Positions 14,874 to 36,446 of a DNA stretch of 55,788 bases are shown one piece after another. Source of the stretch: Phyllobacteriaceae bacterium UBA1940 (GTDB lineage Bacteria > Pseudomonadota > Alphaproteobacteria > Rhizobiales > Rhizobiaceae); assembly GCA_002336975.1 (NCBI GenBank), contig DDFA01000021.1, positions 1 through 55,788 on the forward strand, in the 5' to 3' direction. The notes under the pieces were generated by a model, which was given only the letters and a program-made list of their open reading frames with translations, did no database searches and was not told where the DNA came from. Within the stretch, counting starts at the first letter, position 1. Every line of letters begins with the position of its first letter. The position numbers and the translations under genes are program-made.

Positions 14874-14912
14874 GAGATGATGGCACAGGATTTCTCGGGA
14901 GGAAAGTCCGGC

Positions 14913-16319: not shown

Positions 16320-16347
16320 CCCAGAACGAGATGCAGGGAGGACTAGC

Positions 16348-17322: not shown

Positions 17323-17339
17323 TGCGGCGATAAGAAGGA

Positions 17340-17393
17340 CCGGAGGGCTCACCTCCGGCCATCTCGGCCGCATCCCCTGGCGGGATGCGGCCG
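17340..17393 (+). repeat. Two tandem hairpins between TRAP binding-protein and permease genes
   Basis: Two perfect stem-loops sit in the 159-bp gap. The first is CCGGAGG (17340-17346) and CCTCCGG (17352-17358) around a 5-nt loop. The second is a 12-bp stem, 17365-17376 with 17382-17393, around CTGGC. No T-run follows, so neither is a complete intrinsic terminator. They are well placed to protect the upstream mRNA from 3' decay or to reduce read-through, as is common after abundant binding-protein genes. Confidence 0.7.
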
Positions 17394-17481
17394 TGGATGT
17401 CGGCGTTTCTCGATCCCGCTATCTGGATCGGATCGGGCGAGCGTCGCTTACGCCGGATTCCAACCACGACAGGTTACCCCG

Positions 17482-18072: not shown

Positions 18073-18074
18073 CC

Positions 18075-19355: not shown

Positions 19356-19402
19356 GGCGTCGACGCCTCGACACACGAACCGACAACAGAACTGGAAATG
19401 AC

Positions 19403-20239
19403 ATGCGAACCGAGACCAGACAAGCGATCGATCCGGCCACGGCGGCGTCGTTCGGCACCGAACGGCTGCGCCGGGAATTCCTGATCGAGGGGCTGTTCGC
19501 GCCGGACCGGATCTCGCTGACCTATTCGCATCTCGACCGGCTGGTCGTCGGCGGCGCGACGCCGGTGAAAGGCGCGCTCAAGCTCGAACCGATCAAGGCG
19601 ACGGGCACGCCTTCGTTTCTGGATCGGCGCGAACTGGTGGCGGTGAATGTCGGCGGCGCGGGCGTGATTTCGGTCGGCGGCAAGGACTATCGGCTCGACC
19701 ATCGCGACATGCTCTATGTCGGCAAGGGCGCGGGCGAGGTCAGCTTCGCCAGCGACGACGCGGCGACGCCGGCGAAGTTCTACCTGCTGTCGGCGCCGGC
19801 GCACCACGCCTACGAGACGCGGCTGGTGAAGATCGGCGACGCCAGGCGGATCGACCTCGGCGCGCAGGCGACCTCGAACGAACGTTCGATCTACCAGTTC
19901 ATCCACCCCGCGGTGATGGAGACCTGCCAGCTGGTGGTCGGCATGACGGTGCTGGCGCCGGGATCGGTGTGGAACACCATGCCGTGCCATGTGCACGACC
20001 GGCGCTCGGAAGCCTACCTCTATTTCGCGCTGCCGCAGGACGCGCGCGTCTTCCACTTCATGGGCGAGCCGTCGGAGACCCGCCATCTGGTGGTAAAGAA
20101 CGAAGAGGCGATCCTGTCGCCCGGCTGGTCGATCCATTCGGGCGCGGGCACGTCGAACTATTCCTTCATCTGGGCGATGGCCGGCGACAATGTCGACTAT
20201 ACCGATGTCGACCCGGTGGCGATGGGCGACCTGCGATGA
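19403..20239 (+). CDS. kduI: 5-dehydro-4-deoxy-D-glucuronate isomerase
   Basis: This 278-residue double cupin isomerises 5-keto-4-deoxyuronate (DKI) to 2,5-diketo-3-deoxygluconate in pectin breakdown. It begins RQAIDPATAASFGTERLRREFLIEGLF, which is characteristic of KduI. Zinc ligands are visible in MPCHVHDRRSEAYLYF (the H-x-H and E set) and in SPGWSIHSGAGTSNYSFIW (His). The length is as expected. ATG 19403 is used, and the stop overlaps the ATG of kduD by 4 bp. It acts directly upstream of KduD and, by context, downstream of the KdgF-like cupin encoded two genes later. Confidence 0.95.
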   Translation: MRTETRQAIDPATAASFGTERLRREFLIEGLFAPDRISLTYSHLDRLVVGGATPVKGALKLEPIKATGTPSFLDRRELVAVNVGGAGVISVGGKDYRLDHRDMLYVGKGAGEVSFASDDAATPAKFYLLSAPAHHAYETRLVKIGDARRIDLGAQATSNERSIYQFIHPAVMETCQLVVGMTVLAPGSVWNTMPCHVHDRRSEAYLYFALPQDARVFHFMGEPSETRHLVVKNEEAILSPGWSIHSGAGTSNYSFIWAMAGDNVDYTDVDPVAMGDLR

Positions 20240-20994
20240 GCGGGCCGTTCGACCTCACCGGCAAGCGCGCCATGGTGACCGGGGCCAATACCGGCATCGG
20301 GCAAGCCATCGCCCTGTCGCTGGCGCGGGCCGGCGCCGAGGTTCTGGCGGTCGGCCGCTCGTCGATGGACGAGACGCTGCGGCGGATCGAAGCGGCGGGC
20401 GGCAAGGCGACCGCGATCAAGGCCGATCTCGGCAAGACGAAAACGGTCGCGGCGATGCTCGACGACGCCTGGGCCGGACATGGACCGATCGACATCCTGG
20501 TCAACAATGCCGGCATCATCCGCCGCGCCGATGCGACCAACTTTTCCGAAGCCGACTGGGACGACGTCATCGACATCAACCTGAAGAGCGTGTTCCTGCT
20601 GTGCCAGGCGCTGGCGCGGCAGGCATTCGCCGCCGGACGCCCGGCGAAGATCGTCAACGTCGCCTCGCTGCTGTCGTTCCAGGGCGGCATCCGGGTCGCG
20701 TCCTACACCGCCTCGAAGAGCGGCGTCGCCGGCCTGACCAAACTGCTGGCGAACGAGTGGGCGGCGCGCGGCGTCAATGTCAATGCGATCGCGCCGGGCT
20801 ATATCGTCTCGAACAATACCGAGGCGCTGCGCGCCGATCCCGAACGCTCGACCGACATCCTCAAGCGCATCCCGGCCGGCCGCTGGGGCGACCCGTCGGA
20901 CATCGGCGGCGCGGCGGTCTTCCTGGCGAGCGACGCCGCCAACTACGTCCACGGCGCGATCCTGCCGGTCGATGGCGGCTGGCTCGGCCGATGA
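20236..20994 (+). CDS. kduD: 2-dehydro-3-deoxy-D-gluconate 5-dehydrogenase
   Basis: This 252-residue classical SDR reduces 2,5-diketo-3-deoxygluconate to 2-keto-3-deoxygluconate (KDG). The cofactor motif is TGANTGIG, followed by NNAG, the catalytic serine in VNVASLLSFQGGIRV and YTASK. The FQGGIRVASYTASKSGV and APGYIVSNNTEALR blocks are characteristic of KduD rather than other SDRs. It overlaps kduI upstream and the KdgF-like cupin gene downstream by 4 bp each, so all three are translated as a coupled set. KDG kinase and aldolase are not in the window. Confidence 0.93.
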   Translation: MSGPFDLTGKRAMVTGANTGIGQAIALSLARAGAEVLAVGRSSMDETLRRIEAAGGKATAIKADLGKTKTVAAMLDDAWAGHGPIDILVNNAGIIRRADATNFSEADWDDVIDINLKSVFLLCQALARQAFAAGRPAKIVNVASLLSFQGGIRVASYTASKSGVAGLTKLLANEWAARGVNVNAIAPGYIVSNNTEALRADPERSTDILKRIPAGRWGDPSDIGGAAVFLASDAANYVHGAILPVDGGWLGR

Positions 20995-21365: not shown

Positions 21366-22196
21366 TTATGCTTCCACCAGCGTTCGCGTCAGCGGATGGC
21401 GCGCGTCGGTCAGCCCTTCGAGGATGTTGAAATGGTGGCGGTCGGGCTCCTCGATGGCCGCCGTTTCCGAGCCCAGCCCCTTCCAGATCGACGCCAGCAG
21501 CGCATTCTGGCGCACGAACTCCGAGCGCTCGCCGCCACCGACCCAGCAGGTGAGGCGGGCGCCGTCCATCGGCCGCAGCAGCGCCGGGCTTTCGCGATCA
21601 GCCTCGTCCTCGTCAAGCTTCAGCGTCGCGTTCATGGCGGTGCGCAGCAAGGGCCGCAGATCGTGCACGCCGGAGATCGACACGACATGGCGGATGCGAC
21701 GGCGCAGCGTCGCGTCGAGGGGCGAGGTTTGGCTGACCATGCGGCTGACCAGATGGCCGCCCGCCGAATGGCCTGCCAGCAGGATCGGACCTGACACTTC
21801 ATGAGACGCCGCCTCGATGGCGCGGCCGATCTCGTCGGTGATGCCAGCGATGCGAATGTCGGGGGCGAGCGTGTAGGACGGCATCGCCACGGCATAGCCA
21901 TGCGCCAGTGGGCCGGCGGCATAGTGCGACCAGAAACTCTTGTCGAGCCGCATCCAGAAGCCGCCATGGACAAAGACGGCGAGACCGCGCGGCGCGCCGT
22001 CAGGCAGGAAGAGGTCGAACCGATTGCGCGCCCGGTCGCCATAGGCGATGTCGAGGCGGGCCCGGCCGGCGGACGTCAGCAGTTCGCGCGCCTGCCTCGC
22101 GGGCTCCACCCAGGCCTGCGGCCAGCGATCGCCGCCTGGAATGTTGACGCCGTTGGCATAGGCGTCGTCCCAATCCTCGATCCGCTGCAAGAACAT
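21366..22196 (-). CDS. Alpha/beta hydrolase, kynurenine formamidase-like
   Basis: This 276-residue alpha/beta hydrolase has the oxyanion motif VFVHGGFWMRLDKSFWSHYA and the nucleophile elbow GHSAGGH. A likely Asp is in the C-terminal third and a probable catalytic His in EEPDRHHFNILEGL. The HGG-F/Y-W signature with SYTLAPDIRIAGITDEI resembles the arylformamidase (AFMID-type) group that cleaves N-formylkynurenine. This fits the divergent operon, which encodes tryptophan dioxygenase. ATG 22196 has GAGGGGAAAG; the upstream frame to 22241 is less likely. The classical bacterial KynB is a different, metal-dependent fold, so this would be a functional replacement. Substrate is inferred, not proven. 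Confidence 0.8.
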   Translation of the reverse strand: MFLQRIEDWDDAYANGVNIPGGDRWPQAWVEPARQARELLTSAGRARLDIAYGDRARNRFDLFLPDGAPRGLAVFVHGGFWMRLDKSFWSHYAAGPLAHGYAVAMPSYTLAPDIRIAGITDEIGRAIEAASHEVSGPILLAGHSAGGHLVSRMVSQTSPLDATLRRRIRHVVSISGVHDLRPLLRTAMNATLKLDEDEADRESPALLRPMDGARLTCWVGGGERSEFVRQNALLASIWKGLGSETAAIEEPDRHHFNILEGLTDARHPLTRTLVEA

Positions 22197-22282
22197 CTCT
22201 TTCCCCTCGTCGCGGCCAGCCGCATGTGCCGCGCCCGACAAACTGCCGTCGCGACGACCACCAGTAAAGCGGCTTCCGGCGT

Positions 22283-22314
22283 TATTTCAAGTATGAAATT
22301 TTAGGATTGAAATA
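22283..22314. promoter_or_regulatory. Nested inverted repeats, probable MarR operator of the aminobenzoate operon
   Basis: In the 161-bp divergent gap, TATTTCAA (22283-22290) and TTGAAATA (22307-22314) form a perfect 8-bp inverted repeat. Nested in it, ATTTCA (22284-22289) and TGAAAT (22294-22299) form a 6-4-6 dyad, a typical MarR site size. The AT-rich stretch is unlike the surrounding GC-rich DNA. The MarR gene three places downstream is the likely binder; this is inference. Confidence 0.6.
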
Positions 22315-22357
22315 TGCAACAACCCGTGCAAACCTTCGATCAGGGAGGATTGCAGGC

Positions 22358-24646
22358 ATGAAAGTCGCGGTTCTGGGCGGCGGCCCGGCGGGTCTCTATT
22401 TCGCCATCTCGATGAAATTGCGCGATCCCGGCCACGAGGTCCTGGTGATCGAGCGCAACCGCGCCGACGACACATTTGGCTGGGGCGTGGTGCTGTCCGA
22501 CGAGACGCTCGACAATCTTGCCGAAAACGACGCCAGGAGCGCCGCCGCCATCCGCGAGCACTTCGCCTATTGGGACGACATCGCCGTCTACTACCGGGGC
22601 ACGCGCACGCTTTCGACCGGACACGGTTTTTGCGGCATCGGCCGCAAGATGCTGCTGCAACTTCTGCAAGAGCGCGCCATCGAACTGGGCGTCGACGTCC
22701 GGTTCTCGACCGAAGCGGAGCCTGTCGAAGACTATATGCGCGACTACGACCTGGTGGTCGCCGCCGACGGGCTGAACTCCAAATCCCGCGCCGCTTTCGC
22801 CGACGTGTTCAAGCCCGACATCGAAATCCGCAAATGCAAGTTCGTCTGGCTGGGCACCCACCAGAAATTCGACGACGCCTTCACCTTCATCTTCGAGCAA
22901 ACCGAACATGGCTGGGTCTGGGCCCACGCCTACCAGTTCGACGCCGACACCGCGACGTTCATCGTCGAATGCGATCCCGACACCTGGGAAAAGTTCGGCT
23001 TCGGCGAGATGAGCCAGCAGCAATCGATCAAGGTCTGCGAGGAGATCTTCAAGGACTATCTCGGCGGCCATTCGCTGATGACCAACGCAAATCACATCCG
23101 CGGTTCGGCATGGATCAATTTCCCGCGCGTGCTGTGCGAGCGCTGGTCCTACAAGAACCTGGCGCTGATGGGCGACGCGGCGGCAAGCGCGCATTTCTCC
23201 ATCGGCTCGGGCTCCAAGCTGGCCCTGGAAAGCGCCATCGCGCTGGCCGACTATGTGCATTCGGAGCCGACGCTGGCCAAGGCGTTCGAGCTTTACGAGG
23301 ACGCGCGCCGCGTCGAGGTGCTGAAGCTGCAATCGGCGGCCCGCAATTCGCTGGAATGGTTCGAGGACGTCGAACGCTATCTCGACCTCGATCCGGTGCA
23401 GTTCAACTATTCGCTGTTGACCCGCTCGCAGCGCATCAGCCACGAGAACCTGCGGCTGCGCGACCCCAAATGGATGGCGGGCGCGGAAACCTGGTTCCAG
23501 CGCCAGGCCGGCGGCGACGGGGCGCGCGCGCCGATGTTTGCGCCCTACCGCCTGCGCGGCATGGAACTGAAAAACCGCGTCGTGGTGTCGCCGATGGCGC
23601 AGTACAGCGCCATCGACGGCACGCCGACCGACTGGCATCTGGTGCATTACGGCGAGCGCGCCAAGGGCGGCGCCGGGCTGGTCGTGGTCGAGATGACCTG
23701 CATCAGTCCCGAGGGCCGCATCACGCCCGGCTGTCCCGGCCTTTATGCGCCCGAACACGAAACCGCATGGAAGCGCATCGTCGATTTCGTGCATCGCGAA
23801 ACGACGGCGAAGATCTCCTGCCAGATCGGCCATTCGGGCGCGAAAGGGTCGACCCGGGTCGGCTGGGAAGAAGACAACGCGCCGCTGCCGCACGGCAACT
23901 GGCCGGTGATGTCGGCCTCCGACGTTCCATGGTCGCCCGCCAACCAGACGCCGCATGCGATGACGCGCGCCGACATGGAGCGGGTGCGCGACCAGTTCGT
24001 CGCCTCGGCGCAGATGGCGGACCGCGCCGGCTTCGACATGTTCGAACTGCACATGGCGCACGGCTATCTGCTGTCGTCGTTCATCTCGCCGATGCAGAAC
24101 AAGCGCGTCGACGCCTATGGCGGCTCGCTGGAAAACCGGATGCGCTTTCCGCTCGAAGTCTATCATGCGGTGCGCGCGGCGGTGTCGCCGGACAATCCGA
24201 TCTCGGTGCGTATTTCGGCCAATGACTGGGTCGGCGAGCGCGGCGTGACGCCGCCCGAGGCGGTCGAAATCGCCCGGATGCTGCAGGAGGCGGGCGTCGA
24301 CATTTGCGACGTGTCGGCCGGGCAGACCTCGATCGAGGCGAAACCCGTCTATGGCAGGATGTTCCAGACGCCGTTCTCGGACCGCATCCGAAACGAGACC
24401 GGCATGGCGACGATGGCGGTCGGCAACATCACCGAGCCGGACCACGTCAATTCGATCCTGATGGCCGGCCGGGCCGATCTCGTCTGCCTCGCCCGGCCGC
24501 ATCTGGCCGATCCGTTGTGGACGCTGCACGCGGCGGTGACGCTGGGCGACCGGCAGGTCGACTGGCCGAAGCAATACTGGCCCGGCCGCGACCAGGCCTA
24601 CAGGCTGGCGGAACGGGCGGCCGAACAGTTGACGGGGAAGGTATGA
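22358..24646 (+). CDS. 2-aminobenzoyl-CoA (anthraniloyl-CoA) monooxygenase/reductase
   Basis: This 762-residue two-domain flavoenzyme hydroxylates and then reduces 2-aminobenzoyl-CoA in aerobic anthranilate breakdown. Residues 1 to about 380 are a FAD aromatic hydroxylase like salicylyl-CoA 5-hydroxylase, with the GxGxxG motif in [16 protein letters not shown] and FAD-binding [18 protein letters not shown]. Residues from about 395 are an Old Yellow Enzyme domain ([74 protein letters not shown]). The length and domain order match the known fused enzyme. ATG 22358 has AGGGAGG. The stop overlaps the next gene by 4 bp. A related salicylyl-CoA activity cannot be excluded, but the neighbours favour anthranilate. 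Confidence 0.92.
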
Positions 24647-25401
24647 GGATTTCAGGTTCGCACGCGCTGGTGACGGGCGGCGGAACCGGCGTTGGCCGGG
24701 CGATCGCCGAGACGCTGGCGAAGGCCGGCGCGACGGTGACGATCTGCGGCCGCCGGCGCGAACCGCTGGACGCGGCAGCCGCGGCAAATCCGAACATATT
24801 CGTCGAACTGGCCGACGTGACAAACGAAGCGTCGGTCGAACAGCTCTACAAGCGGGCCGAGGCGGCGCGCGGTCCGTTCTCGATCGTCGTCGCCAATGCC
24901 GGCGTCGCGGAGAGCGCGCCGGCGCACAAGACGACGCTTGCGCAGTGGAACCGGATCATCGCCATCAACCTGACTGGCGCGTTCCTGACCGTGCGCCCGG
25001 CGCTCGCCGGCATGGCCAAGCGCGGCGAAGGGCGGATCGTCTTCGTCGCCTCGATCGCCGGCCTTGTGGGCGGCGCCTATATCGCGCCCTACGTCGCCTC
25101 CAAGCACGGCGTCGTCGGCCTGGCCAGATCGCTGGCGATCGAACTCGCCAGGACCGGGGTGACCTCGAATGCGGTGTGTCCGGGCTTTGTCGAGACCGAA
25201 ATGCTGCAGCAATCCGTCGACAACATCGTCGCCAAGACCGGCCGCTCCGCCGAGGAGGCGCGCGCCAGCCTTGTCGCCGGCAATCCACAAGGCCGCTTCA
25301 TCCAGCCGGACGAGGTCGCCGACGCGGTGCTTTGGCTGTGCGGCGACAACGCCAGGTCGGTCAACGGCCAGGCGATCGCGCTTTCGGGAGGCATGCCATG
25401 A
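24643..25401 (+). CDS. SDR dehydrogenase, probable 3-hydroxyacyl-CoA step of the aminobenzoate route
   Basis: This 252-residue classical SDR has TGGGTGVG, then a CGRRREP loop after beta-2 that suggests NADP use. NAG follows, with the catalytic serine in [16 protein letters not shown] and YVASK. It ends LSGGMP. Its ATG overlaps the upstream monooxygenase stop and its stop overlaps the marR start, both by 4 bp. In this operon it most likely oxidises a hydroxyacyl-CoA or alicyclic hydroxy intermediate after ring reduction. The substrate is inferred from context only, since SDRs of this kind are diverse. Confidence 0.82.
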
Positions 25402-25867
25402 CGGCGAAGCTGGCCGAAACACCAGGAGCCGAAACGTCGAAGGACCGGCTGCGGCTGTGGGTGCGGCTGCTGCGCGCGGCGCGGGTGATCGAAGGCGAAT
25501 TGCGGCTGCGGCTGATCAGCCAGTACAAGACCACCCTGCCCCGGTTCGACGTGATGGCGGCACTCTACCGCCAGCCCGAGGGCATGCTGATGAGCGACCT
25601 GTCGCGCTTCCTGCTGGTCTCCAACGGCAATGTCACCGGCATTGTCGACCGGCTGGTCGATGACGGTTTTGTCCAGCGCTCGCGCCGCGACGGCGACCGG
25701 CGCACCTCGATGGTCAAGCTGACGGATGCTGGGCAGACATCGTTCCGCGACATGGCGGCGGCGCATGAAGGCTGGGTCGACGAACTGCTGCACAGCGTCT
25801 CGGCGGCCGACGCCGACGCGCTGGCAGGCATGCTGAAATCGTTCCGCAGCGAATGGGAGGACCATCA

Positions 25868-25871
<4 letters not shown>
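25398..25871 (+). CDS. MarR-family transcriptional regulator
   Basis: This 157-residue regulator has the MarR winged helix: [48 protein letters not shown], with the wing [19 protein letters not shown] containing the conserved DGDRR. MarR regulators of aromatic CoA pathways usually bind the CoA ester and release DNA. This one lies inside the operon it probably controls, overlapping both neighbours, so its level would follow operon output. The candidate operator is the nested dyad at 22283-22314. The ligand, probably 2-aminobenzoyl-CoA, is inferred. Confidence 0.9.
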
Positions 25872-26679
<808 letters not shown>

Positions 26680-26680
<1 letters not shown>

Positions 26681-27825
26681 TGACGGACCGTTCCTTCCTC
26701 GCCTGGCCGTTCTTCGACGATCGCCACCGCGAGCACGCGGCGCGGCTGGAGGCGTGGTGCGAGGCCAACCTGCCGGTCGGCCATGACGATGTCGACCTGG
26801 CCTGCCGCGAACTCGTCGCGGCGCTGGGCGACGGCGGCTGGCTGCGCGCCACCGCGGTCGACCCCGACAAGCCCGGCGCGATCGACGTGCGCACCCTGTG
26901 CATCACCCGCGAGACCCTGGCCCGCCATGACGGGCTGGCCGATTTCGCCTTCGCCATGCAGGGGCTGGGGACGGGGTCGATCTCGTTCTTCGGCTCGCAC
27001 CAGCAGCGGCAATGGCTGAAGAAGACCCGCGCCGGCAAGGCGTTGTCGGCGTTCGCGCTGTCGGAGCCGCGCTCCGGCTCCGACGTCGCCAATATGGAAA
27101 TGCAAGCGGTGCGCGACGGCGGCGACTATGTGCTGACCGGCGAAAAGACCTGGATATCGAACGGCGGCATCGCCGACGTCTACTGCGTCTTCGCGCGCAC
27201 CGGCGACGGACCGGGCGCCAAGGGGATTTCGGCCTTTGTCGTGCCCGCCGACGCGCCGGGCCTGCGGGTCGCCGAACGCATCGAGGTGATCGCGCCGCAT
27301 CCGCTGGCGCGGCTGTCGTTTGACGGCGTGCGCGTGCCGGCGTCGGCGATGATCGGCGAGAGCGGCCAGGGCTTTCGCATCGCCATGACGGTGCTGGACG
27401 TGTTCCGCTCGACCGTCGGCGCCGCCGCGCTCGGCTTTGCCCGTCGCGCGCTCGACGAGACGGTGGCGCGGGTGCGCGACCGGAAACTGTTCGGCGCGCC
27501 GCTGTTCGACCTGCAGATGGTGCAGGGCCACATCGCCGAGATGGCGCTCGACGTCGATGCGGCGGCGCTGCTGGTCTACCGCGCCGCCTGGACCAAGGAC
27601 ATGGGCGCGGCGCGGGTCACCCGCGAGGCGGCGATGGCCAAGCTCTACGCCACCGACAAGGCGCAGGACGTGATCGACAGGGCCGTGCAACTGCATGGCG
27701 GCGACGGGGTTCGCAAAGGCCATATCGTCGAGAGCCTTTACCGTGAAATCCGCGCGCTGCGCATCTACGAAGGCGCGTCCGACGTGCAGAAGGTGGTGAT
27801 CGCGCGACAGGTGATGGGAGCCTAA
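26680..27825 (+). CDS. Acyl-CoA dehydrogenase
   Basis: This 381-residue flavoprotein dehydrogenates CoA thioesters at the alpha-beta bond. Family motifs are [19 protein letters not shown] with [16 protein letters not shown] (FAD and substrate binding), and near the C-terminus [41 protein letters not shown]. The glutamate in IYEGASD is the expected catalytic base. It begins in a TGATG overlap with the hydratase stop and is followed 1 bp later by the ligase gene. It presumably acts on an alicyclic acyl-CoA after the monooxygenase/reductase step. Confidence 0.92.
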
Positions 27826-27826
27826 C

Positions 27827-29452
27827 ATGCAGCTTGGACCCTCGGCCCATGTCGACACCTTCGCCCGCGACAATCTCCCGCCGGTCGAGCTGCAGCCGGT
27901 GTTCCTGCTGGGCGGGTTCAACTATCCCGACCATCTGAACGCCGCGGTCGAGCTGACCGACCGCATGGTGGAGCGCGGTTTCGGCGACAACACCGCGCTG
28001 ATCGGCAACGGTCGCCGCCGCACCTACAAGGAACTGTCGGACTGGACCAACAGGCTGGCGCATGCGCTGGTGGAGACCTATGGCGTCAAGCCGGGCAACC
28101 GGGTGCTGATCCGCTCCGCCAACAATCCGGCGATGGTCGCCTGCTGGCTGGCTGCAACCAAGGTCGGCGCGGTCGTCGTCAACACCATGCCGATGCTGCG
28201 CGCCGGCGAACTCAGTCAGATCGTCGACATCGCCCAGGTCGAATTCGCGCTGTGCGACACGCGCATCATGGACGAACTGACCACCTGCGCGAAGTCGAGC
28301 AAATATCTCAAGACCGTGATCGGTTTCGACGGCACCGCCAACCATGACGCCGAACTCGACCGCGCCGCGCTCGACAAGCCGGTGCGGTTCGAATCGGTCA
28401 GGACCGGCCGCGACGACGTGGCGCTGCTCGGCTTCACGTCGGGCACGACCGGCAAGCCGAAAGCAACGATGCATTTCCACCGCGACCTGCTGATCATCGC
28501 CGACGGCTATGCGCGCGAGGTGCTGGACGTGCAGCCTTCCGACGTGTTTGTCGGCTCGCCGCCGCTCGCCTTCACCTTCGGGTTGGGCGGGCTGGCGATC
28601 TTCCCGCTGCGCTTCGGCGCGGCGGCGACGCTGCTCGAACAGGCGACGCCGCCCAACATGATCGCCATCATCGAGACCTACAAGGCGACGATCTGCTTCA
28701 CCGCTCCGACCGCCTACCGCGCGATGATGACGGCGATGGACCAGGGGGCGGACCTGTCGTCGCTGCGCATTGCAGTGTCGGCCGGCGAGACATTGCCGGG
28801 ACCCGTGTTCGAGGACTGGGTGAAGAAGACCGGCAAACCGATGCTGGACGGCATCGGCTCCACCGAAATGCTGCATATCTTCATCACCAACCGGCTGGAC
28901 GACCTGGCCCCCGCCACCACCGGCCGGCCGGTCGGCGGTTATGTCGCGCAGGTTGTCGACGACGAGATGAAAGAGGCGCCGCGCGGCGCCCCGGGACACC
29001 TGGCCGTGCGCGGGCCGACCGGTTGCCGCTACCTGGCCGACGACCGCCAGAAGGTCTATGTCAGGGATGGCTGGAACATTACCGGCGACACCTTCATCCA
29101 AGACGAGGACGGCCGGTTCCATTTCGCCGCGCGATCCGACGACATGATCGTCTCGGCCGGCTACAACATCGCCGGGCCCGAGGTCGAGGCGGCGCTGCTG
29201 AAGCACGAGATGGTGCGCGAATGCGCGGTGATCGGCGCCGCCGATGCCGATCGCGGACAGATCGTCGAGGCGCATGTGGTGCTGTCGGACGGCGTGGCGG
29301 CGAGCGACCTGACCAGAAAGATCCTCCAGGATCACGTCAAGGCGACGATCGCGCCGTTCAAATATCCGCGCTCAATCAAATTCATCGACGCGCTGCCAAA
29401 AACGACGACGGGCAAGATCCAGCGCTTTCGCTTACGGGAGAGCCAGTCATGA
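27827..29452 (+). CDS. Benzoate/2-aminobenzoate-CoA ligase
   Basis: This 541-residue ANL-superfamily ligase activates an aromatic acid with ATP and CoA. The phosphate loop is [17 protein letters not shown], the A5-like motif is [11 protein letters not shown], then GWNITGDTF and the hinge [17 protein letters not shown]. The catalytic lysine is in [15 protein letters not shown] at the C-terminus. The N-terminal [18 protein letters not shown] and [12 protein letters not shown] blocks are typical of benzoate-CoA ligases. With the anthraniloyl-CoA monooxygenase in the same operon, 2-aminobenzoate is the likely substrate. The stop overlaps kynA by 4 bp. Confidence 0.92.
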
Positions 29453-30285
29453 GCGGCAAGGAAACCACCACCAGGGACGGCGCGCTGACGGACTTTTCCG
29501 GCCGCATGTCCTATGGCGACTATCTCGGGCTCGACCAGGTGCTCGGCGCGCAGCACCCGCTGTCGCAGTCGCCGGACGAACTGCTGTTCATCATCCAGCA
29601 CCAGACGTCCGAACTGTGGATGAAGCTGGCGATCCACGAAATGCGCTCCGCGATGGCGGCGATCCACGGCGACCAGCCGCAGCCGGCCTTCAAGATGCTG
29701 ACGCGGGTTGCGCGCATCTTCGAGCAACTGACCGCCGCCTGGGACGTGCTGCGGACGATGACGCCATCGGAATACACCCGTTTCCGGGAATCACTCGGCC
29801 AGTCGTCGGGCTTCCAGTCGGCGCAGTACCGGGCGATCGAGTTTCTGGCCGGCAACCGCAACCTGGCGATGCTGCAGCCACACGCGCACAGGCCCGACAT
29901 CGTGGCGGGGCTCGAGGACATTCTCGCCAAGCCCAGCCTCTATGACGAGGCGATCATGCTCCTGGCGCGGCGCGGCTTCGACATCGGCGCCGACGCCAGC
30001 CGCACGGACTGGCGGCAGACGCGCAAGGAAAACCCGCAGGTGATGCGGGCCTGGGCCGAGGTTTATCGGGCGCCGGAACAGAACTGGGAGCTCTACGAAC
30101 TGGCCGAGAAGCTGGTCGATTTCGAAGACTACTTCCGCCGCTGGCGCTTCAACCATGTCACCACTGTCGAACGCATCATCGGACTGAAGCGCGGCACCGG
30201 CGGCACGGCGGGCGTATCCTACCTGCGGCGCATGTTGGAGGTGGAACTCTTCCCCGAACTGTGGAAAGTGAGAACGGAGCTTTGA
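29449..30285 (+). CDS. kynA: Tryptophan 2,3-dioxygenase
   Basis: This 278-residue heme dioxygenase opens the indole ring of L-tryptophan to N-formylkynurenine. Typical features are [20 protein letters not shown], the region [18 protein letters not shown] with the distal-side His, [19 protein letters not shown], and the proximal heme ligand His in [17 protein letters not shown]. The C-terminus [13 protein letters not shown] binds the substrate carboxylate. Length and motifs match bacterial TDO. It overlaps the CoA ligase gene and is followed 62 bp later by an ABC importer. The operon order suggests tryptophan is a source of anthranilate here. Confidence 0.95.
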
Positions 30286-30347
30286 AGCCTAAGGTTGCCG
30301 CAAAGCTGCTGCCGCAGAAAAGCCAGAACAAGAATGGGAGAAACGAC

Positions 30348-31496
30348 ATGAAAAAACTGATTGCAACAGCAGCCCTTGCGCTGTCGATCGGCGTCTCGGG
30401 CGCCGCGCTCGCCGAGCCGTTGAAGATCGGCATGATCACCACGCTTTCCGGCGGCGGCGCCGGCCTCGGAGTCGACGCGCGCGACGGCTTCGACCTGGCG
30501 CTGAAGCTCGCCGGCGACAAGGCCAAGGACATCACCGTCGTCACCGAAGACGACGCGATGAAGCCGGAACTGGCGGTGCAGATCGCCGACAAGATGATCC
30601 AGTCGGACCAGGTCGACGTGCTGACGGGCATCATCTGGTCGAACCTCGCCATGGCGGTGGTGCCGAACGCGGTCGCCCAGGGCAAGTTCTACCTGTCGGT
30701 GAACGCAGGCCCCTCGCCGCTGGCCGGCGAAAAGTGCAACGAGAACTATTTCAACGTCGCCTACCAGAACGACAATTTCCACGAAGCGGCCGGCCAGTAC
30801 GCGCAGACCCAGGGCATCAAGAAGATGTTCATCATGGCCCCGAACTATCCGGCCGGCACCGACTCGCTGAACGGCTTCAAGCGGTTCTACAAGGGCGAGC
30901 TGGTCGGCGAGGTCTACACCAAGCTCGGCCAGACGGACTACGCCGCCGAAATCGCTCAGATCCGCGCCTCGGGCGCAGACTCGGTGTTCTTCTTCCTGCC
31001 CGGCGGCATGGGCATCTCCTTCGTCAAGCAATACGCCCAGTCCGGCGTCGGCATCCCGCTGATCGGCCCCGGCTTCTCGTTCTCGCAGGACGTCCTCGCC
31101 GCCATCGGCGATGCGGCGCTGGGCGCGAAGAACACCGCCTCGTGGTCGCACGACCTCGACAATGCGGCCAACAAGACGTTCGTGGAGGAATTCAAGAAGG
31201 CCTACAACCGGCTGCCCTCCGTCTATGCGGCGCAGGCCTACGACACCGCTAACCTGCTGATCTCGGCCAACGCCAAGGCCAGCGTCAAGGACGCCGCGGC
31301 GTTCCGCGCGGCGCTGAAGGCGGCGGACTTCGCGACGGTGCGCGGCAAGTTCAAGTTCAACACCAACAACCATCCGATCCAGGACCTCTACGTGCGCGAG
31401 GTCGTCAAGGAAGGCGACGTGCTGACCAACAAGATCGTGGCCACCGCCTTCACCGACCATGCCGACGCCTATGCGGCGAAGTGCCCGCTGAAGTAG
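30348..31496 (+). CDS. Liv-type ABC transporter substrate-binding protein
   Basis: This 382-residue periplasmic protein has a signal peptide (MKKLIATAALALSIGVSGAALA). The mature fold begins EPLKIGMITTLSGGGAGLGVDARDGFDLALK, the usual start of branched-chain amino-acid and aromatic-acid binding proteins (Peripla_BP_6). Two cysteines (in GEKCNEN and at the C-terminal AKCPLK) could form a disulfide. The start ATG 30348 has GGGAG. Members of this family bind aromatic acids as well as Leu/Ile/Val. In this operon tryptophan, kynurenine or anthranilate is the probable ligand. A palindromic repeat separates it from the permease genes. Confidence 0.9.
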   Translation: MKKLIATAALALSIGVSGAALAEPLKIGMITTLSGGGAGLGVDARDGFDLALKLAGDKAKDITVVTEDDAMKPELAVQIADKMIQSDQVDVLTGIIWSNLAMAVVPNAVAQGKFYLSVNAGPSPLAGEKCNENYFNVAYQNDNFHEAAGQYAQTQGIKKMFIMAPNYPAGTDSLNGFKRFYKGELVGEVYTKLGQTDYAAEIAQIRASGADSVFFFLPGGMGISFVKQYAQSGVGIPLIGPGFSFSQDVLAAIGDAALGAKNTASWSHDLDNAANKTFVEEFKKAYNRLPSVYAAQAYDTANLLISANAKASVKDAAAFRAALKAADFATVRGKFKFNTNNHPIQDLYVREVVKEGDVLTNKIVATAFTDHADAYAAKCPLK

Positions 31497-31509
31497 GGGC
31501 GGCACACTC

Positions 31510-31644
31510 CTCATCCGGCCTCGCTTCGTTCGGCCGAGACGCCGAACGAAGCGCACCCGTCCTTCGCTCCTCGCAAAGGGGCAAAGCCGGGCGTGGTTTC
31601 CCCTTCTCCTCCAGTGAAGAAGGTGATCGGCGGGGCCGGATGAG
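31510..31644. repeat. Palindromic repeat element between binding-protein and permease genes
   Basis: A 135-bp block is bounded by inverted ends CTCATCCGGCC (31510-31520) and GGCCGGATGAG (31634-31644). Inside it, 31522-31534 and 31541-31553 form a perfect 13-bp stem with a 6-nt loop. The CTCATCCGGCC/GGCCGGATGAG and CCTTCTCC style is like the short palindromic intergenic elements common in rhizobia. It lies within the operon, so it would fold in the mRNA after the binding-protein gene. No T-run follows the main stem. Confidence 0.75.
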
Positions 31645-31652
31645 AGATTCAC

Positions 31653-32591
31653 TTGCAGAGACGATCGACCTTGCAAACCGCGCTCATCATCGAACAATTG
31701 CTCAACGGACTTCAGTTCGGCGTCATGCTGTTCCTGATGGCCGCCGGGCTGACCCTGATCTTCGGCGTCATGGGCCTGATCAATCTCGCCCACGGCTCGC
31801 TCTACATGACCGGCGCGTTCGCCTGCGCGGCGGTGGCGGCGTGGAGCGGATCGTTCTGGCTCGGCCTCGCCGCCAGCCTGGTCGCCGCCGCCGGGGCCGG
31901 CGCGATCGTCGAGATCACCGTCATCCGCCGGCTCTATGACCGCGACCATCTCGATCAGGTGCTGGCGACATTCGCGCTGATCCTGATCTTTTCCGAAGGC
32001 GCGCGCTGGCTGTTCGGCTCGTTTCCGCTTTATCTGGACATTCCGCCCCAGCTGGCGGGCGCGGTGCAACTGCCGGGCGGCGTCAGCTATCCGCTCTACC
32101 GGCTTGCTATCATCGCGGTCGGCCTCGCGGTCGCGGGAGGGCTTTTCCTGCTGATCTCGCGCACCCGGCTGGGCATGAGGATACGCGCCGGCGAAAGCGA
32201 CCGGGAGATGATCAGCGCGCTCGGCGTCGACATCCACACGCTCTACACCGTCGTCTTCGCGCTGGGCGCGGCGCTTGCCGGCCTGGCCGGCGCGATGGTC
32301 GGCGCGCTGCAATCGGTGCAGGTGGGAATGGGCGAGCCGGTGCTGATCCTGGCGTTCGTGGTCATCGTCATCGGCGGCATCGGCTCGATCCGCGGCGCAT
32401 TCATCGGCGCCCTGCTGGTCGGCGTGGTCGACACGATGGGCCGCATCCTGTTGCCGCAGGCGCTTGCCGCAATCATCGACCCGGCGCAGGCGGCCAGCAT
32501 CGGCGCGGCGATCGCCTCGATGCTGATCTACATCGTCATGGCGCTGATCCTGGCCCTGCGTCCGCGCGGCCTGTTTGCGGCGGGCGGCTGA
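31653..32591 (+). CDS. ABC transporter permease, LivH type
   Basis: This roughly 312-residue, strongly hydrophobic permease has the LivH signature IIEQLLNGLQFGVMLFLMAAGLTLIFGVMGLINLAHGSLYMTG. The coupling region is ISRTRLGMRIRAGESDREMISALGVD, followed by GIGSIRGAFIGALLVG. No ATG is near the start: TTG 31653 and TTG 31671 are both possible. TTG 31671 gives MQTALIIEQLL, closer to the usual family start. The gene follows the repeat element by 8 bp. It shares one base with livM. Confidence 0.92.
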   Translation: MQRRSTLQTALIIEQLLNGLQFGVMLFLMAAGLTLIFGVMGLINLAHGSLYMTGAFACAAVAAWSGSFWLGLAASLVAAAGAGAIVEITVIRRLYDRDHLDQVLATFALILIFSEGARWLFGSFPLYLDIPPQLAGAVQLPGGVSYPLYRLAIIAVGLAVAGGLFLLISRTRLGMRIRAGESDREMISALGVDIHTLYTVVFALGAALAGLAGAMVGALQSVQVGMGEPVLILAFVVIVIGGIGSIRGAFIGALLVGVVDTMGRILLPQALAAIIDPAQAASIGAAIASMLIYIVMALILALRPRGLFAAGG

Positions 32592-33559
32592 TGACCCGCG
32601 AGACGATCTTTTCGGCCATTCTGCTGCTGGCGCTCTTGGCGCTGCCCTTCGCCGCGCAGGCGATCGGCAATCCGTTCTATGTGACGCTCGCGACACGCAT
32701 GGCGATCCTGGCGCTCGCCGCGGTCGGGCTCAACATCGCGCTTGGCCTCGGCGGCCTGGTGTCGTTCGGCCATGCGGCGTTCTTCGGCATCGGCGGCTAT
32801 GCGGCGGGCATCATCGCGTCGCACGCCATGAATGGCGAGCCGGTGCTCGGCATGATGCTGCCGGGCTCGATGCCCGTCGCCTGGCTGCTGGCGGCGGCCG
32901 CCGCCGGGCTGGTGGCGCTGACCACCGGCGCGATCAGCCTGCGCACATCGGGCGTCTATTTCATCATGATCACGCTCGCCTTCGCCCAGATGGTCTACTA
33001 TTTCGCCATCTCCTGGCCAGCCTATGGCGGCGAGGACGGATTGTCGATCGCGTTGCGCAACTCCTTTCCCGGCGCCAACACGGCGCGGCCGCTCGACCTG
33101 TTCCTGATCTGCTACGGCGTGCTGGTGGTGGCGTTGCTGGCGTTCTGGCGGATCAGCGTTTCAAGGTTCGGCGCAGCGCTGCAGGCAGCGCGCCAGAACG
33201 AAATCCGCGTCGCCGCAGTGGGCATCGAACCGTTCCCGATCCGTCTCGCCGCCTTCGTCGTCTCGGCGATGATCACCGCGGTGGCGGGCGCGCTGTTCGC
33301 CGAGCTGACCCGTTACGTCAGCCCGTCGATGCTGGCCTGGCCGATGTCGGGCGAACTGATCGTGCTGGTCATTCTGGGCGGCGTCGGGCGGCTGGCGGGA
33401 CCTGTCGCCGGCGCGATGGCGTTCGTGATGCTCGAATACTGGCTGGGCGGACTGACCGAACGCTGGCAGTTCTTCCTCGGGCTGATCCTGCTTGGCGTGG
33501 TGCTGTTCGCGCGCGGTGGCATACTGGGCCTCGTCGCGGGAAAGGCCCGCCATGGCTGA
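32591..33559 (+). CDS. ABC transporter permease, LivM type
   Basis: This 322-residue polytopic permease has the LivM block LAAVGLNIALGLGGLVSFGHAAFFGIGGYAAGI. The cytoplasmic coupling segment is ISVSRFGAALQAARQNEIRVAAVGIEPFPIRLAAFVVSA, followed by GGVGRLAGPVAGAMAFVMLEY. It pairs with the LivH-type protein to form the membrane channel. Its ATG overlaps the livH stop by one base, and its 3' end overlaps the ATPase gene start by 8 bp. This shows tightly coupled translation of the importer. Confidence 0.93.
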   Translation: MTRETIFSAILLLALLALPFAAQAIGNPFYVTLATRMAILALAAVGLNIALGLGGLVSFGHAAFFGIGGYAAGIIASHAMNGEPVLGMMLPGSMPVAWLLAAAAAGLVALTTGAISLRTSGVYFIMITLAFAQMVYYFAISWPAYGGEDGLSIALRNSFPGANTARPLDLFLICYGVLVVALLAFWRISVSRFGAALQAARQNEIRVAAVGIEPFPIRLAAFVVSAMITAVAGALFAELTRYVSPSMLAWPMSGELIVLVILGGVGRLAGPVAGAMAFVMLEYWLGGLTERWQFFLGLILLGVVLFARGGILGLVAGKARHG

Positions 33560-34301
33560 GCCGGTCCTCGACATCCGCAACCTGTCGAAATCGTTCGGCG
33601 CGCTGAAGGCGACCGACAATGTCAGCCTCGACCTGCGCCCGGGCGAGATCCACGCCCTGATCGGGCCGAACGGCGCGGGCAAGACGACGCTGATCCACCA
33701 GATATCCGGCGCGATCAGGCCGGACGCCGGCTCGATCTCGTTTCTGGGGCGGGACATGCTGCCGCTCGGCATGGCGGCGCGGGCCAGGCTCGGGCTCGGC
33801 CGCACCTTCCAGATTTCGTCGCTGATCCCGGAATTCTCGGCGCTGCGCAATGTGATGCTGGCGGTGCAGGCGCAGCAGGGCTCCAGCATGGGGGCGCTCG
33901 CCAATGTAATGGCCGACGCCAGCCTGACCGGACCGGCGCATGAGGCGCTGGCGCAGGTGGGACTGCAGGAGCGTTCCGGCGTGGCGGCGGCCGAACTGTC
34001 GCATGGCGAGCGGCGACAGCTGGAAATCGCCATCGCCCTGGCGCTCGGCGCCAAGGCGTTCCTGCTCGACGAGCCGATGGCGGGCATGGACCCGGAAGGG
34101 GCGAAGCGGCTCACCGGCTTCCTGGCGAAGCTGCGCGAGGAAGCGCCGATCCTGCTGATCGAACACGACATGGACGCGGTGTTCGCGCTGGCCGACCGGA
34201 TATCGGTGCTGGTCTACGGCCAGGTGATCGCCACCGGAACGGTGGCGGAAATCCGGAGCAACCCGCAGGTGCGCGAAGCCTATCTGGGAGACGACGCATG
34301 A
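33552..34301 (+). CDS. ABC transporter ATP-binding protein, LivG type
   Basis: This 249-residue ATPase has Walker A GPNGAGKTT near residue 38, a Q-loop in GRTFQISSLIPEFSAL, signature LSHGERRQLEIA, Walker B AFLLDEPMAGMD and switch His in LIEHDMDAVF. The longer second domain segment is typical of LivG. The signature reads LSHGE rather than LSGGQ, which is normal for LivG. ATG 33552 lies 8 bp inside livM and the stop overlaps livF by 4 bp. It powers the importer as a heterodimer with the LivF-type protein. Confidence 0.95.
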   Translation: MAEPVLDIRNLSKSFGALKATDNVSLDLRPGEIHALIGPNGAGKTTLIHQISGAIRPDAGSISFLGRDMLPLGMAARARLGLGRTFQISSLIPEFSALRNVMLAVQAQQGSSMGALANVMADASLTGPAHEALAQVGLQERSGVAAAELSHGERRQLEIAIALALGAKAFLLDEPMAGMDPEGAKRLTGFLAKLREEAPILLIEHDMDAVFALADRISVLVYGQVIATGTVAEIRSNPQVREAYLGDDA

Positions 34302-34984
34302 GCCTGCTGTCGGTCTCGGGGATCCAGAGCTGGTACGGGATGAGCCAGGCGCTGTTCGGGGTCGATCTCGACATCGCCGAGGGAGAGGTGGTGGCGCTGA
34401 TGGGGCGCAACGGCATGGGCAAGACGACGACGATCCGCGCCGTCTGCGGCCTCACCCCCGCCCGCGCCGGCGCGATCGTGCTCGCCGGCGACGACATCAC
34501 CCGGCGCGAACCGTTCCACATCGCGCGCGCCGGCATCGGCCTCGTGCCGGAAGGCCGGCGCTGCTTCCGCAACCTGACGGTGGCGGAAAACCTGCTGGCC
34601 GCGGCACGGCCCGGCAAGTGGACGATGGCGCGGGTGGTTGAACTGTTCCCGCGCCTGGGCGAACGGATGGAGCAGGGCGCGTCGACGCTGTCGGGCGGCG
34701 AGCAGCAGATGCTGGCGGTCGGCCGCGCGCTGATGACCAATCCGCGCCTGCTGATCCTGGACGAGGCGACCGAGGGGCTGGCGCCGGTGATCCGCAAGGA
34801 TATCTGGCGCGCCATCCGCACGCTCAAGGACGAGGGGCAATCGATCCTCGTCGTCGACAAGACGATGGCGGAGCTGATGCCGGTGGCCGACCGCTGCTTC
34901 CTGCTCGAGAAGGGCCAGACGGTGTGGTCGGGGCGGCCGGCCGACCTGACCGATGAACTGCAAGACCGCTATCTGGGCGTGTGA
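34298..34984 (+). CDS. ABC transporter ATP-binding protein, LivF type
   Basis: This 228-residue ATPase has Walker A MGRNGMGKTTTI, a Q/Pro-loop region in GIGLVPEGRRCFRNLTV (hallmark of LivF), signature LSGGEQQMLAVGRALM, Walker B LLILDEATEGLAP and LVVDKTMAELM, where the usual H-loop His is replaced by Lys (LIVDK/LVVDK is common in LivF). It completes the five-gene importer. The RidA-family gene follows 27 bp downstream on the same strand with its own ribosome site, so it is probably in the same transcript. Confidence 0.95.
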   Translation: MSLLSVSGIQSWYGMSQALFGVDLDIAEGEVVALMGRNGMGKTTTIRAVCGLTPARAGAIVLAGDDITRREPFHIARAGIGLVPEGRRCFRNLTVAENLLAAARPGKWTMARVVELFPRLGERMEQGASTLSGGEQQMLAVGRALMTNPRLLILDEATEGLAPVIRKDIWRAIRTLKDEGQSILVVDKTMAELMPVADRCFLLEKGQTVWSGRPADLTDELQDRYLGV

Positions 34985-35011
34985 GCCCGACGCGCGACCT
35001 GGGAGACTGTG

Positions 35012-35407
35012 ATGAGCGATCTCGAAATGCTGAACCCGTCCAACTGGAAGCCGGCCAAGGGCTACGCCAACGGGGTGCTGGCCTCCGGGCAGGTGGCGTT
35101 CCTTGGCGGCCATATCGGCTGGAACGGCGACCAGGTGTTCGAGACCGACGATTTCGTCGGCCAGGTCAGGCAGGCGCTGGAGAACATCCGCGAGGTGCTG
35201 GCGGTGGCGGGCGCGTCGACCGACCGGATCGTCAGGATGACCTGGTTCATCACCGACAAGAGAGAATATCTGTCGCGCCTGCCCGAGGTCGGCCAGGCCT
35301 ACCGGTCGGTGATGGGCAAGCATTTCCCGGCGATGACGATGGTGCAGGTGGCGGCGCTGATCGAGGACCGCGCCAAGGTCGAGATCGAGGCGACCGCGGT
35401 GCTTTAA
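35012..35407 (+). CDS. RidA/YjgF-family protein, possible enamine hydrolase
   Basis: This 131-residue member of the RidA superfamily forms trimers with active sites between subunits. Recognisable parts are WKPAKGYANGVLASGQVAFLGGHIGWN, FVGQVRQALENIREVLAVAGAS and VRMTWFITDKREYLSRLPEVGQAYR. The C-terminal EDRAKVEIEATAVL carries the conserved E-x-E. In true RidA an arginine near residue 105 binds the carboxylate; here the corresponding region reads VQVAALIEDRAKVEIE, so the Arg position is shifted or absent. The GGGAG site fits ATG 35012. In an anthranilate operon it could hydrolyse the enamine formed after ring reduction; that is inference. Confidence 0.85.
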   Translation: MSDLEMLNPSNWKPAKGYANGVLASGQVAFLGGHIGWNGDQVFETDDFVGQVRQALENIREVLAVAGASTDRIVRMTWFITDKREYLSRLPEVGQAYRSVMGKHFPAMTMVQVAALIEDRAKVEIEATAVL

Positions 35408-35478: not shown

Positions 35479-36375
35479 ATGGCCCCGCAACCGTCGATCA
35501 CCAAAGCCGCATTGTGGATGGGCGTGTGGCTCACCCTGTTGCTCACCATGACGGTGGCCGGGCGCGAGGCGACGCGCGAACTCGACGTGTTCCAGATCAT
35601 GGAGATGCGGGCGATCATCGGCATCTTCCTGCTGGCGCCGCTGATCCACATGGCCGGCGGCGTCAAGACGCTGCGCACGAACGTGTTCGCGCTGCATGTC
35701 GGCCGCAACATCGTGCACTACGCCGCCCAGTTCGCCTGGTTCGTGGCGCTGACGATGATCCCGCTGGCGCAACTGATCTCGATCGAGTTCACCATGCCGA
35801 TCTGGACGGCGATCCTCGCCGCCTTATTCCTCGGCGAAAAGATCGGCCCGTGGAAGCTGATGTCGATCATATTCGGGGTGATCGGAGTGGCGATCATCGT
35901 TCGTCCCGGGATCGGCGACATCGACCAGGGCCAGTTCATCGCGCTGGCCGCGTCCGTCGGCTTCGCCATATCGGTGATCATGATCAAGGCGCTGACGCGC
36001 CATGACAGCGTGCTGACCATCATCTTCTGGATGCTGATCATCCAGTCGGCGCTCGGGCTGATCCCGGCGCTGCTGGCGTGGCGGTGGCCGTCGGCCGAGG
36101 TGTTGCCCTGGGTGTTCGTGATCGCGTTCTGCGGCACGTTTTCCCACTACAGCCAGGCGCGGGCGATGACCTATGCGGATGCGACCGTCGTCATCCCGAT
36201 GGATTTCCTGCGCGTGCCGCTGTCGGCCCTGCTCGGCTGGCTGCTCTACCAGGAGGCGCTCGACGCCTGGACGGTGGCGGGGGCGGTGCTGATCCTGTTC
36301 GGCAACACGCTTAACCTGCGCAAGGCGGGAACCGCGCGGATTGTGCCGGCGGACAAGGACCGGCCGCAGAGCTGA
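35479..36375 (+). CDS. EamA/DMT-superfamily transporter
   Basis: This 298-residue protein has ten hydrophobic helices in two EamA repeats, the usual drug/metabolite transporter topology. Repeat one includes REATRELDVFQIMEMRAIIG and FTMPIWTAILAALFLGEKIGPWK; repeat two includes YADATVVIPMDFLRVPLSALLGWLLYQE. Members of this superfamily export or import small metabolites. It lies 71 bp after the RidA gene and 71 bp before the uxaA-type gene, all on one strand. Its substrate could belong to either pathway or to neither. A good ribosome site (AAAAGGAA) precedes ATG 35479. Confidence 0.87.
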   Translation: MAPQPSITKAALWMGVWLTLLLTMTVAGREATRELDVFQIMEMRAIIGIFLLAPLIHMAGGVKTLRTNVFALHVGRNIVHYAAQFAWFVALTMIPLAQLISIEFTMPIWTAILAALFLGEKIGPWKLMSIIFGVIGVAIIVRPGIGDIDQGQFIALAASVGFAISVIMIKALTRHDSVLTIIFWMLIIQSALGLIPALLAWRWPSAEVLPWVFVIAFCGTFSHYSQARAMTYADATVVIPMDFLRVPLSALLGWLLYQEALDAWTVAGAVLILFGNTLNLRKAGTARIVPADKDRPQS

Positions 36376-36419: not shown

Positions 36420-36446
36420 AGTTTGCCCAAGCTGAAAGACTCCGTC

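Follow-up and report, generated by a model that had tools for sequence, protein, structure and literature searches.

Gene content of the locus

The window, that is, the whole stretch of DNA analysed here, comprises 55,788 bases (66% GC) of contig DDFA01000021.1 of Phyllobacteriaceae bacterium UBA1940, whose genome is a draft bin (144 contigs, 3.36 Mb), 81% complete and 5.15% contaminated. It carries a locus in which a gene for tryptophan 2,3-dioxygenase (TDO) stands with genes for a fused 2-aminobenzoyl-coenzyme A (CoA) monooxygenase/reductase (ABM) and an aryl-CoA ligase, and which we consider likely to serve the breakdown of tryptophan-derived anthranilate. Open reading frames and family profile scores recovered every gene that an earlier note on this DNA had named, at or near the place it gave. 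The functions of all locus genes were assigned from sequence comparison, as follows.

21366..22196, minus strand: alpha/beta hydrolase, probable N-formylkynurenine formamidase (AFMID-like); Pfam, NCBIfam and PDB matches, conserved residues, co-occurrence with TDO
22284..22313, no strand: predicted tandem operator, two 16-bp palindromes ATTTCAAnnTTGAAAT 14 bp apart; motif comparison across relatives
22358..24646, plus strand: ABM; PF01494 and PF00724, NF006101 at 1269 bits
24643..25401, plus strand: short-chain dehydrogenase/reductase (SDR); family profile matches
25398..25871, plus strand: MarR-family regulator, proposed operator binder; family profile matches
25868..26680, plus strand: crotonase-family protein, candidate ring-opening hydrolase or isomerase; NF006107, active-site residues
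26680..27825, plus strand: acyl-CoA dehydrogenase; family profile matches
27827..29452, plus strand: aryl-CoA ligase, probable anthranilate-CoA ligase; TIGR02262, best PDB match 4wv3
29449..30285, plus strand: TDO; TIGR03036 at 424 bits
30348..31496, plus strand: periplasmic binding protein of a Liv/HAAT-type importer; Pfam, nearest solved relatives 4evq and 4ey3/4eyg
31653..32591, plus strand: Liv-type permease 1; PF02653, 118 bits
32591..33559, plus strand: Liv-type permease 2; PF02653, 118 bits
33552..34301, plus strand: importer ATPase 1; PF00005 and PF12399
34298..34984, plus strand: importer ATPase 2; PF00005
35012..35407, plus strand: Rid-family protein, candidate enamine deaminase; Pfam and NCBIfam matches, alignment to RidA

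The crotonase-family gene has two possible starts, TTG at 25868 and ATG at 25877, and its Asp149 is numbered from the latter; residues of the Rid protein are counted from 35009. With the TTG start, the genes from ABM to TDO (22358-30285) overlap or abut, with gaps of -4 to +1 nt. Longer spacers follow TDO (62 nt) and the binding-protein gene (156 nt, before permease 1), and 27 nt precede the Rid gene. A single transcript from ABM through the Rid gene is plausible; the formamidase-like hydrolase, being divergent, falls outside it. The spacer between binding protein and permease (31497-31660) folds strongly (-81.7 kcal/mol, z -3.95). In importer operons this spacer is a common site for a messenger RNA (mRNA)-processing hairpin, and perhaps the fold is one, keeping the binding-protein mRNA high.

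The tryptophan-cleaving and CoA halves

The TDO scored 424.3 bits to TIGR03036 (cut-off 390.7) and has His51, Arg113, His236 and Thr250, which we take to be the catalytic residues. No kynureninase was found within the window, and the ligase and TDO genes overlap by 4 nt, leaving none between them. The sole match in the genome lies on another contig (C70; G000:C70:18796-19950, 306.9 bits, cut-off 246.4). The cluster alone therefore cannot convert kynurenine to anthranilate. Among the 34 genomes having ABM and TDO within 15 kb, kynureninase was at most 3 kb from TDO in 23; in the remaining 11, it was on another contig in eight (the window genome included) and 6.5-6.8 kb from TDO in three. Of the 70 kynureninase matches in the compared loci, those nearest to the C70 protein, at 56% (G040) and 54% (G136) identity, both came from genomes with kynureninase-free operons.

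KynB (TIGR03035) gave no match at E 0.001 in the window genome and was over cut-off in none of the 151 family genomes described below. The divergent hydrolase is likely, but not certain, to be an AFMID-like N-formylkynurenine formamidase that replaces it. It matched the solved kynurenine formamidase 4e11 (7.8e-15), and scored higher to 2pbl, a putative esterase/lipase/thioesterase (7e-76), and to 9n8r, Lipase 1 (6e-29); its NCBIfam match was NF058665, 'hormone-sensitive lipase' (360 bits, cut-off 320). In a 54-sequence alignment H77, G78, G79, W81, S144, E223 and H255 were each conserved in at least 97%, and we assume that the HGG-[aromatic]-W motif (HGG[F/Y]W) and a Ser144/Glu223/His255 triad, whose acid would be Glu, are of the AFMID type. 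An orthologue (at least 240 bits) occurred in 64 of the 69 TDO genomes of the family versus 28 of the 82 others. Since those 28 lack an over-cut-off TDO, the idea that the hydrolase strictly marks tryptophan cleavage was rejected. Of the 20 TDO-centred loci that have neither ligase nor binding-protein nor Rid genes, 7 have the hydrolase gene near TDO.

On the CoA side, the ABM is one protein of 762 amino acids with an FAD monooxygenase domain (PF01494) and an old-yellow-enzyme domain (PF00724), and scored 1269 bits to NF006101 (cut-off 1078). The ligase reached 364.9 bits to the benzoate-CoA ligase family TIGR02262, a little short of the 375.25-bit cut-off, and its best PDB match was the solved anthranilate-CoA ligase 4wv3. 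Companions of ABM clusters, namely beta-oxidation-type enzymes, a MarR protein and a Rid protein, are present and conserved in relatives.

Distribution of the ABM-TDO link

We assembled a family sample of 151 genomes from 109 genera and a phylum sample of 398 genomes, in which TDO was counted at 283 bits or more and nine genomes with TDO matches below 120 bits were left out. Co-occurrence counts in both samples ignore relatedness, and several genera were sampled more than once. In the family, ABM was over its cut-off in 80 genomes, TDO in 69 and kynureninase in 80. ABM and TDO occurred together in 61 genomes versus 36.6 expected (Fisher p about 1e-16, kinship ignored), kynureninase was over cut-off in 59 of these 61, and in 37 of them ABM and TDO were within 20 kb. 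In the phylum sample, ABM was over cut-off in 64 genomes, TDO in 95 and both in 52 versus 15.3 expected; in 14 of the 52 the two genes were within 20 kb, one of these outside the class.

For gene order, we compared 79 further ABM loci that passed the cut-off, 12 long sub-cut-off ABM matches (one of which, L153, is a truncated copy of the main ABM class) and 38 additional TDO-centred loci; three genomes with fragmentary TDO matches below 85 bits were left out of this set. A recurrent order emerged: ABM, SDR, MarR, crotonase-family protein, acyl-CoA dehydrogenase, ligase, in some cases kynureninase, then TDO, importer and Rid, with the hydrolase divergent. It recurs in many family genomes, and it is kept in Mesorhizobium, Aquamicrobium, Chelativorans, Nitratireductor and Thalassospira among the named-strain loci, which are the best 80 of at least 586 confirmed relatives, are biased to near kin and include eight duplicates of family-set genomes. 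In Ruegeria pomeroyi DSS-3, TDO and a hydrolase are divergent from ABM. More generally, TDO may lie after the ligase gene, before ABM, between the acyl-CoA dehydrogenase and ligase genes, or divergently. Thus, contrary to the earlier note, the arrangement is not unusual in this family: besides the 37 linked cases out of 61 in the family, it is found in other families.

In a tree of 161 ABM protein sequences, built rapidly with FastTree, the label 'TDO-linked' changed 26 times, at least 20 of these forced by starred branches, versus an average of 51.6 in shuffles; the root of this tree is unknown, some 'no' labels stem from truncated loci, gain and loss are indistinguishable and a long-branch warning applies. 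The repeated changes imply that the ABM-TDO link was made or lost repeatedly, which hints at selection on linkage. With 26 changes, a single origin of the linkage was unsupported.

A third ABM subclass (L142-L152), at 46-49% identity and under the family cut-off, sits in other gene neighbourhoods and possibly acts on a different aryl-CoA substrate. TDO was in the same stretch three times (L145, L149, L150), and L147/L148 have a binding protein 71% like that of the window.

A predicted tandem operator shared with separate TDO operons

The divergent promoter between the hydrolase and ABM genes holds ATTTCAAnnTTGAAAT palindromes at 22284-22299 (one mismatch) and 22298-22313 (two mismatches). Judged from the window alone the tandem operator is suggestive only, since shuffled versions of it held a mean of 0.31 matches, and 7 of 100 held at least two. 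The site at 22284-22299 is the only one with at most one mismatch in the 3.36-Mb draft. Comparison across relatives was more telling. Of 131 close loci, counting the window, 116 had a site with up to three mismatches in the 250 bp upstream of ABM (108 of 122 distinct ones, with repeated genomes and the window removed), as did 24 of 28 loci of a more distant class and 3 of 10 of the third class; among random pieces the figure was 12 of 665, and among shuffled upstream regions 2 of 131. The two best sites were 14 bp apart in 48 loci and 15 bp apart in 19, the second-best having at most four mismatches.

As the consensus was built from ABM upstream regions, these counts are not independent of it, and the comparison of TDO loci apart from ABM comes closer to independence. 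Of 37 such loci, a few of them in same-genus pairs, three were dropped for lack of upstream sequence. The site (up to three mismatches) preceded the first detected operon gene in 9 of the 14 with a ligase, binding-protein or Rid gene, and in 2 of the 20 without any of these (p 0.002); at two mismatches the figures were 5 of 14 and 0 of 20 (p 0.007). As to the five operator-negative loci with companion genes, two (L163, L171) hit a contig end inside the operon, two (L168, L169) have a two-mismatch site ahead of an earlier gene, and in L154 the contig ends within the ligase gene. Co-location, co-occurrence and this shared predicted operator together support the link between tryptophan cleavage and anthranilate-CoA breakdown put forward in the earlier note.

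We propose that the MarR regulator binds the tandem operator. A MarR match was found in the same locus in all 120 close ABM loci examined, 106 of which have the operator, as do 11 of the 14 distant-class loci with MarR. The rule that the site would be present only where a MarR gene is in the locus was dropped, the pairing test being undiscriminating.

Rid and crotonase-family proteins as candidates for deamination and ring opening

The Rid protein scored 60.9 bits to the general Rid model TIGR00004 (cut-off 106.25), and 70 of 102 distinct close ABM loci, as well as all 20 of the more distant class, carry its gene. The 102 loci, which also serve for the binding-protein and TDO counts below, have at least 7.5 kb downstream, and some end before the importer or Rid position. 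Met109 of the protein aligns with the carboxylate-binding Arg105 of RidA, and was found in all 111 distinct Rid sequences having a residue at that position. According to PMC4433059, Arg105 contacts the substrate carboxylate, and its replacement by Ala almost completely abolished imine hydrolysis. Since a CoA thioester has no such carboxylate, Met in place of Arg105 would fit a carboxylate-masked CoA thioester as the Rid substrate.

The crotonase-family protein belongs to the enoyl-CoA-hydratase family NF006107 (472 bits, cut-off 330). Ile/Met120 and Lys/Arg142 stand at the two hydratase Glu sites in 140 of 140 distinct sequences; we assume that these positions correspond to the catalytic Glu 144 and Glu 164 of the rat enzyme. 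Asp149, likewise in all 140, aligns with an Asp of the isomerase PaaG (4fzw). This suggests that the enzyme opens the ring or isomerises its substrate, as opposed to simply hydrating it. Both proteins are thus candidates, the Rid protein for deamination and the crotonase-family protein for ring opening.

A different account, to which we give a little less than an even chance, is that deamination is spontaneous, with the Rid protein serving as general protection from reactive enamines and the crotonase-family protein acting as an ordinary hydratase. In its favour, the ABM product is described as unstable below pH 5 in PMC3534580, the imine deaminase activity of the Rid family is described as broad in PMC5619798, and without the Arg105 equivalent the Rid protein could equally have lost its deaminase activity. 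It is harder to square with the presence of the Rid gene in 70 of 102 close and 20 of 20 distant-class loci, with the invariance of Met109 and with the replacement of both Glu sites in every crotonase-family sequence compared.

A plasmid cluster of Paracoccus denitrificans PD1222 (L272) has an extra acyl-CoA thioesterase gene adjoining the Rid gene, and a 3-hydroxyacyl-CoA dehydrogenase gene lies divergently; the products of both are further candidates for the lower pathway.

The importer and its cargo

The importer parts match Pfam permease, ATPase and binding-protein families of the branched-chain-amino-acid type, and the nearest solved relatives of the binding protein, 4evq and 4eyg, presumably bind aromatic acids. 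The binding protein was present in 45 of the 102 distinct close ABM loci, 17 of these without TDO, and TDO in 49, 21 of these without the binding protein. Among 36 TDO-centred loci, six had the binding protein, all six with ligase or Rid genes as well; none of the 20 TDO-centred loci lacking ligase and Rid genes had it. Thus, the importer goes with the CoA half (ABM and ligase) more than with TDO, so that anthranilate or kynurenine is a likelier cargo than tryptophan. The importer had been said to carry tryptophan or anthranilate, and only the second part, widened to kynurenine, is favoured by these counts.

It is unlikely, therefore, that the importer carries tryptophan (or branched-chain amino acids), with external tryptophan as the main substrate. 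The importer does follow TDO immediately here, and the permeases and the first ATPase match Pfam branched-chain amino acid transport families; against this stand the 17 TDO-free ABM loci that keep the binding protein, and its occurrence in TDO-centred loci solely in company with ligase or Rid genes.

Proposed route

We consider it likely, from sequence comparison, that the locus works as a unit for the catabolism of tryptophan-derived anthranilate, the route being taken as far as the ABM product. TDO would open the indole ring to give N-formylkynurenine, which the divergent hydrolase would deformylate to kynurenine. The kynureninase from the other contig would then yield anthranilate and alanine, and the ligase would convert anthranilate to anthraniloyl-CoA. 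ABM, by the known reaction of its family, would hydroxylate and reduce this to 2-amino-5-oxocyclohex-1-ene-1-carbonyl-CoA. The importer would take up external anthranilate or kynurenine. A MarR repressor on the tandem operator would control both directions, and might be released by a pathway intermediate, perhaps anthraniloyl-CoA.

The steps past the ABM product are more tentative, and we would put them at somewhat under even odds. The Rid protein may hydrolyse the enamine of the ABM product to a 2,5-dioxo thioester, the ring of this thioester may be opened at the C1-C2 bond by the crotonase-family protein, and the opened chain may pass to beta-oxidation through the SDR and the acyl-CoA dehydrogenase. 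Only in Arthrobacter cells grown on anthranilate does PMC3534580 report a CoA ester of a C7H8O4 acid; such an ester is expected after deamination, which supports the proposed route. A wider version, which we hold just as cautiously, is that a specialised Rid protein with Met for Arg105 deaminates the ABM product, that the crotonase homologue, lacking the hydratase Glu pair, opens the ring by hydrolysis to give 4-oxopimeloyl-CoA, that a MarR regulon with the 14/15-bp-spaced operator ties in tryptophan cleavage, and that ABM chiefly serves lower tryptophan catabolism in many Pseudomonadota.

Several observations count against the route or parts of it. In 38 of the 52 phylum genomes with both genes, ABM and TDO were not within 20 kb on one contig. 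Both sampled genomes of the same genus were without over-cut-off ABM, TDO or kynureninase, and yet each keeps one hydrolase orthologue (69-70% identity), so the hydrolase has a role apart from tryptophan cleavage in some genomes. The kynureninase contig C70 could be foreign, given the completeness and contamination of the bin. As to regulation, scans at two and three mismatches gave no operator site at the kynureninase locus of the window genome, and sites with up to three mismatches were found in 4 of 21 separate kynureninase loci (that of the window genome and 20 hand-chosen from 83 over-cut-off matches), two of the four, both from one genus, having two mismatches and lying some 50 bp ahead of the gene. 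Moreover, 13 of 14 distant-class ABM loci without a matching MarR gene have the operator. Lastly, NCBI names the family NF006101 salicylyl-CoA 5-hydroxylase/oxidoreductase, and 26 of the 30 plasmid matches listed carry the salicylyl-CoA 5-hydroxylase name.

This annotation, together with the absence of TDO from 53 of the 102 distinct close ABM loci, is what speaks for the ABM-ligase half serving another aryl acid such as salicylate, with TDO a passenger, which we regard as quite improbable because 61 of 80 ABM genomes in the family sample and 52 of 64 in the phylum sample carry TDO at some place, 23 of the 34 linked genomes have kynureninase at most 3 kb from TDO, the ligase best matches an anthranilate-CoA ligase in the PDB, and split-off TDO operons share the operator. 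With tryptophan-derived anthranilate as the substrate, the family annotated as salicylyl-CoA hydroxylase is suggested to be an anthraniloyl-CoA monooxygenase in many of these bacteria.

Genomic surroundings

Uronate catabolism genes lie left of the cluster at 14868-20994 (glucuronate isomerase, TRAP transporter, KduI, KduD), and to its right, at 36423-37952, there is a galactarate-dehydratase-like gene scoring under its family cut-off. With uronate genes on both flanks, it looks as if the cluster had been inserted among them. An EamA-family transporter gene (35479-36375, PF00892) is immediately downstream of the Rid gene, and the alphaproteobacterial small RNA ar7 was found at 49138-49277 on the minus strand (Rfam RF02342, 98.5 bits).

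Comparison with known systems

A search of titles and abstract openings found no paper describing this operon, most subscription journals lying outside its coverage. Within the literature covered, four things are new: how far the link to tryptophan extends, the predicted operator, the replacement of the formamidase and the observations on the active sites.

The 2-aminobenzoate-CoA clusters of Azoarcus evansii, which Schuehle et al. reportedly described in 2001 (J Bacteriol 183:5268), are said to have most of these genes already and to include a MarR-like regulator, an ABC binding protein and a 'translation inhibitor' (Rid-family) gene. Compared by description, they resemble the window locus in having the ligase, the fused monooxygenase/reductase and beta-oxidation-type enzymes, whereas the window locus adds TDO, the formamidase-like hydrolase and a full importer; the literature covered describes no operator for them. 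The ligase and ABM steps are known from this organism, as stated in a review (PMC4539516).

With the anthranilate branch of kynBAU, the locus shares TDO and, elsewhere in the genome, kynureninase, which together yield anthranilate. It differs in that an AFMID-like alpha/beta hydrolase probably takes the place of KynB, and that anthranilate would go to its CoA ester, not to catechol. In Arthrobacter sp. Rue61a, the same two steps were followed through ligase activity in E. coli extracts and CoA esters detected by liquid chromatography-mass spectrometry, as given in PMC3534580. That system, in contrast, is actinobacterial, has PaaX-related regulators and is fed by quinaldine, and the word 'tryptophan' occurs zero times in the main text. 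Cupriavidus metallidurans has annotated abm and kyn genes, yet, according to PMC8879955, did not grow on anthranilate.

The tryptophan route via anthraniloyl-CoA is itself recognised, and was omitted from an automated pathway tool 'due to a lack of knowledge', in the words of PMC9007349. The route named there is the same as the one proposed for the window; our comparison offers candidates for the steps lacking there, naming enzymes that may carry out deformylation, deamination and ring opening, and it predicts an operator. Relatives of the locus in the named strains Ruegeria pomeroyi DSS-3 and Paracoccus denitrificans PD1222 make this route testable.

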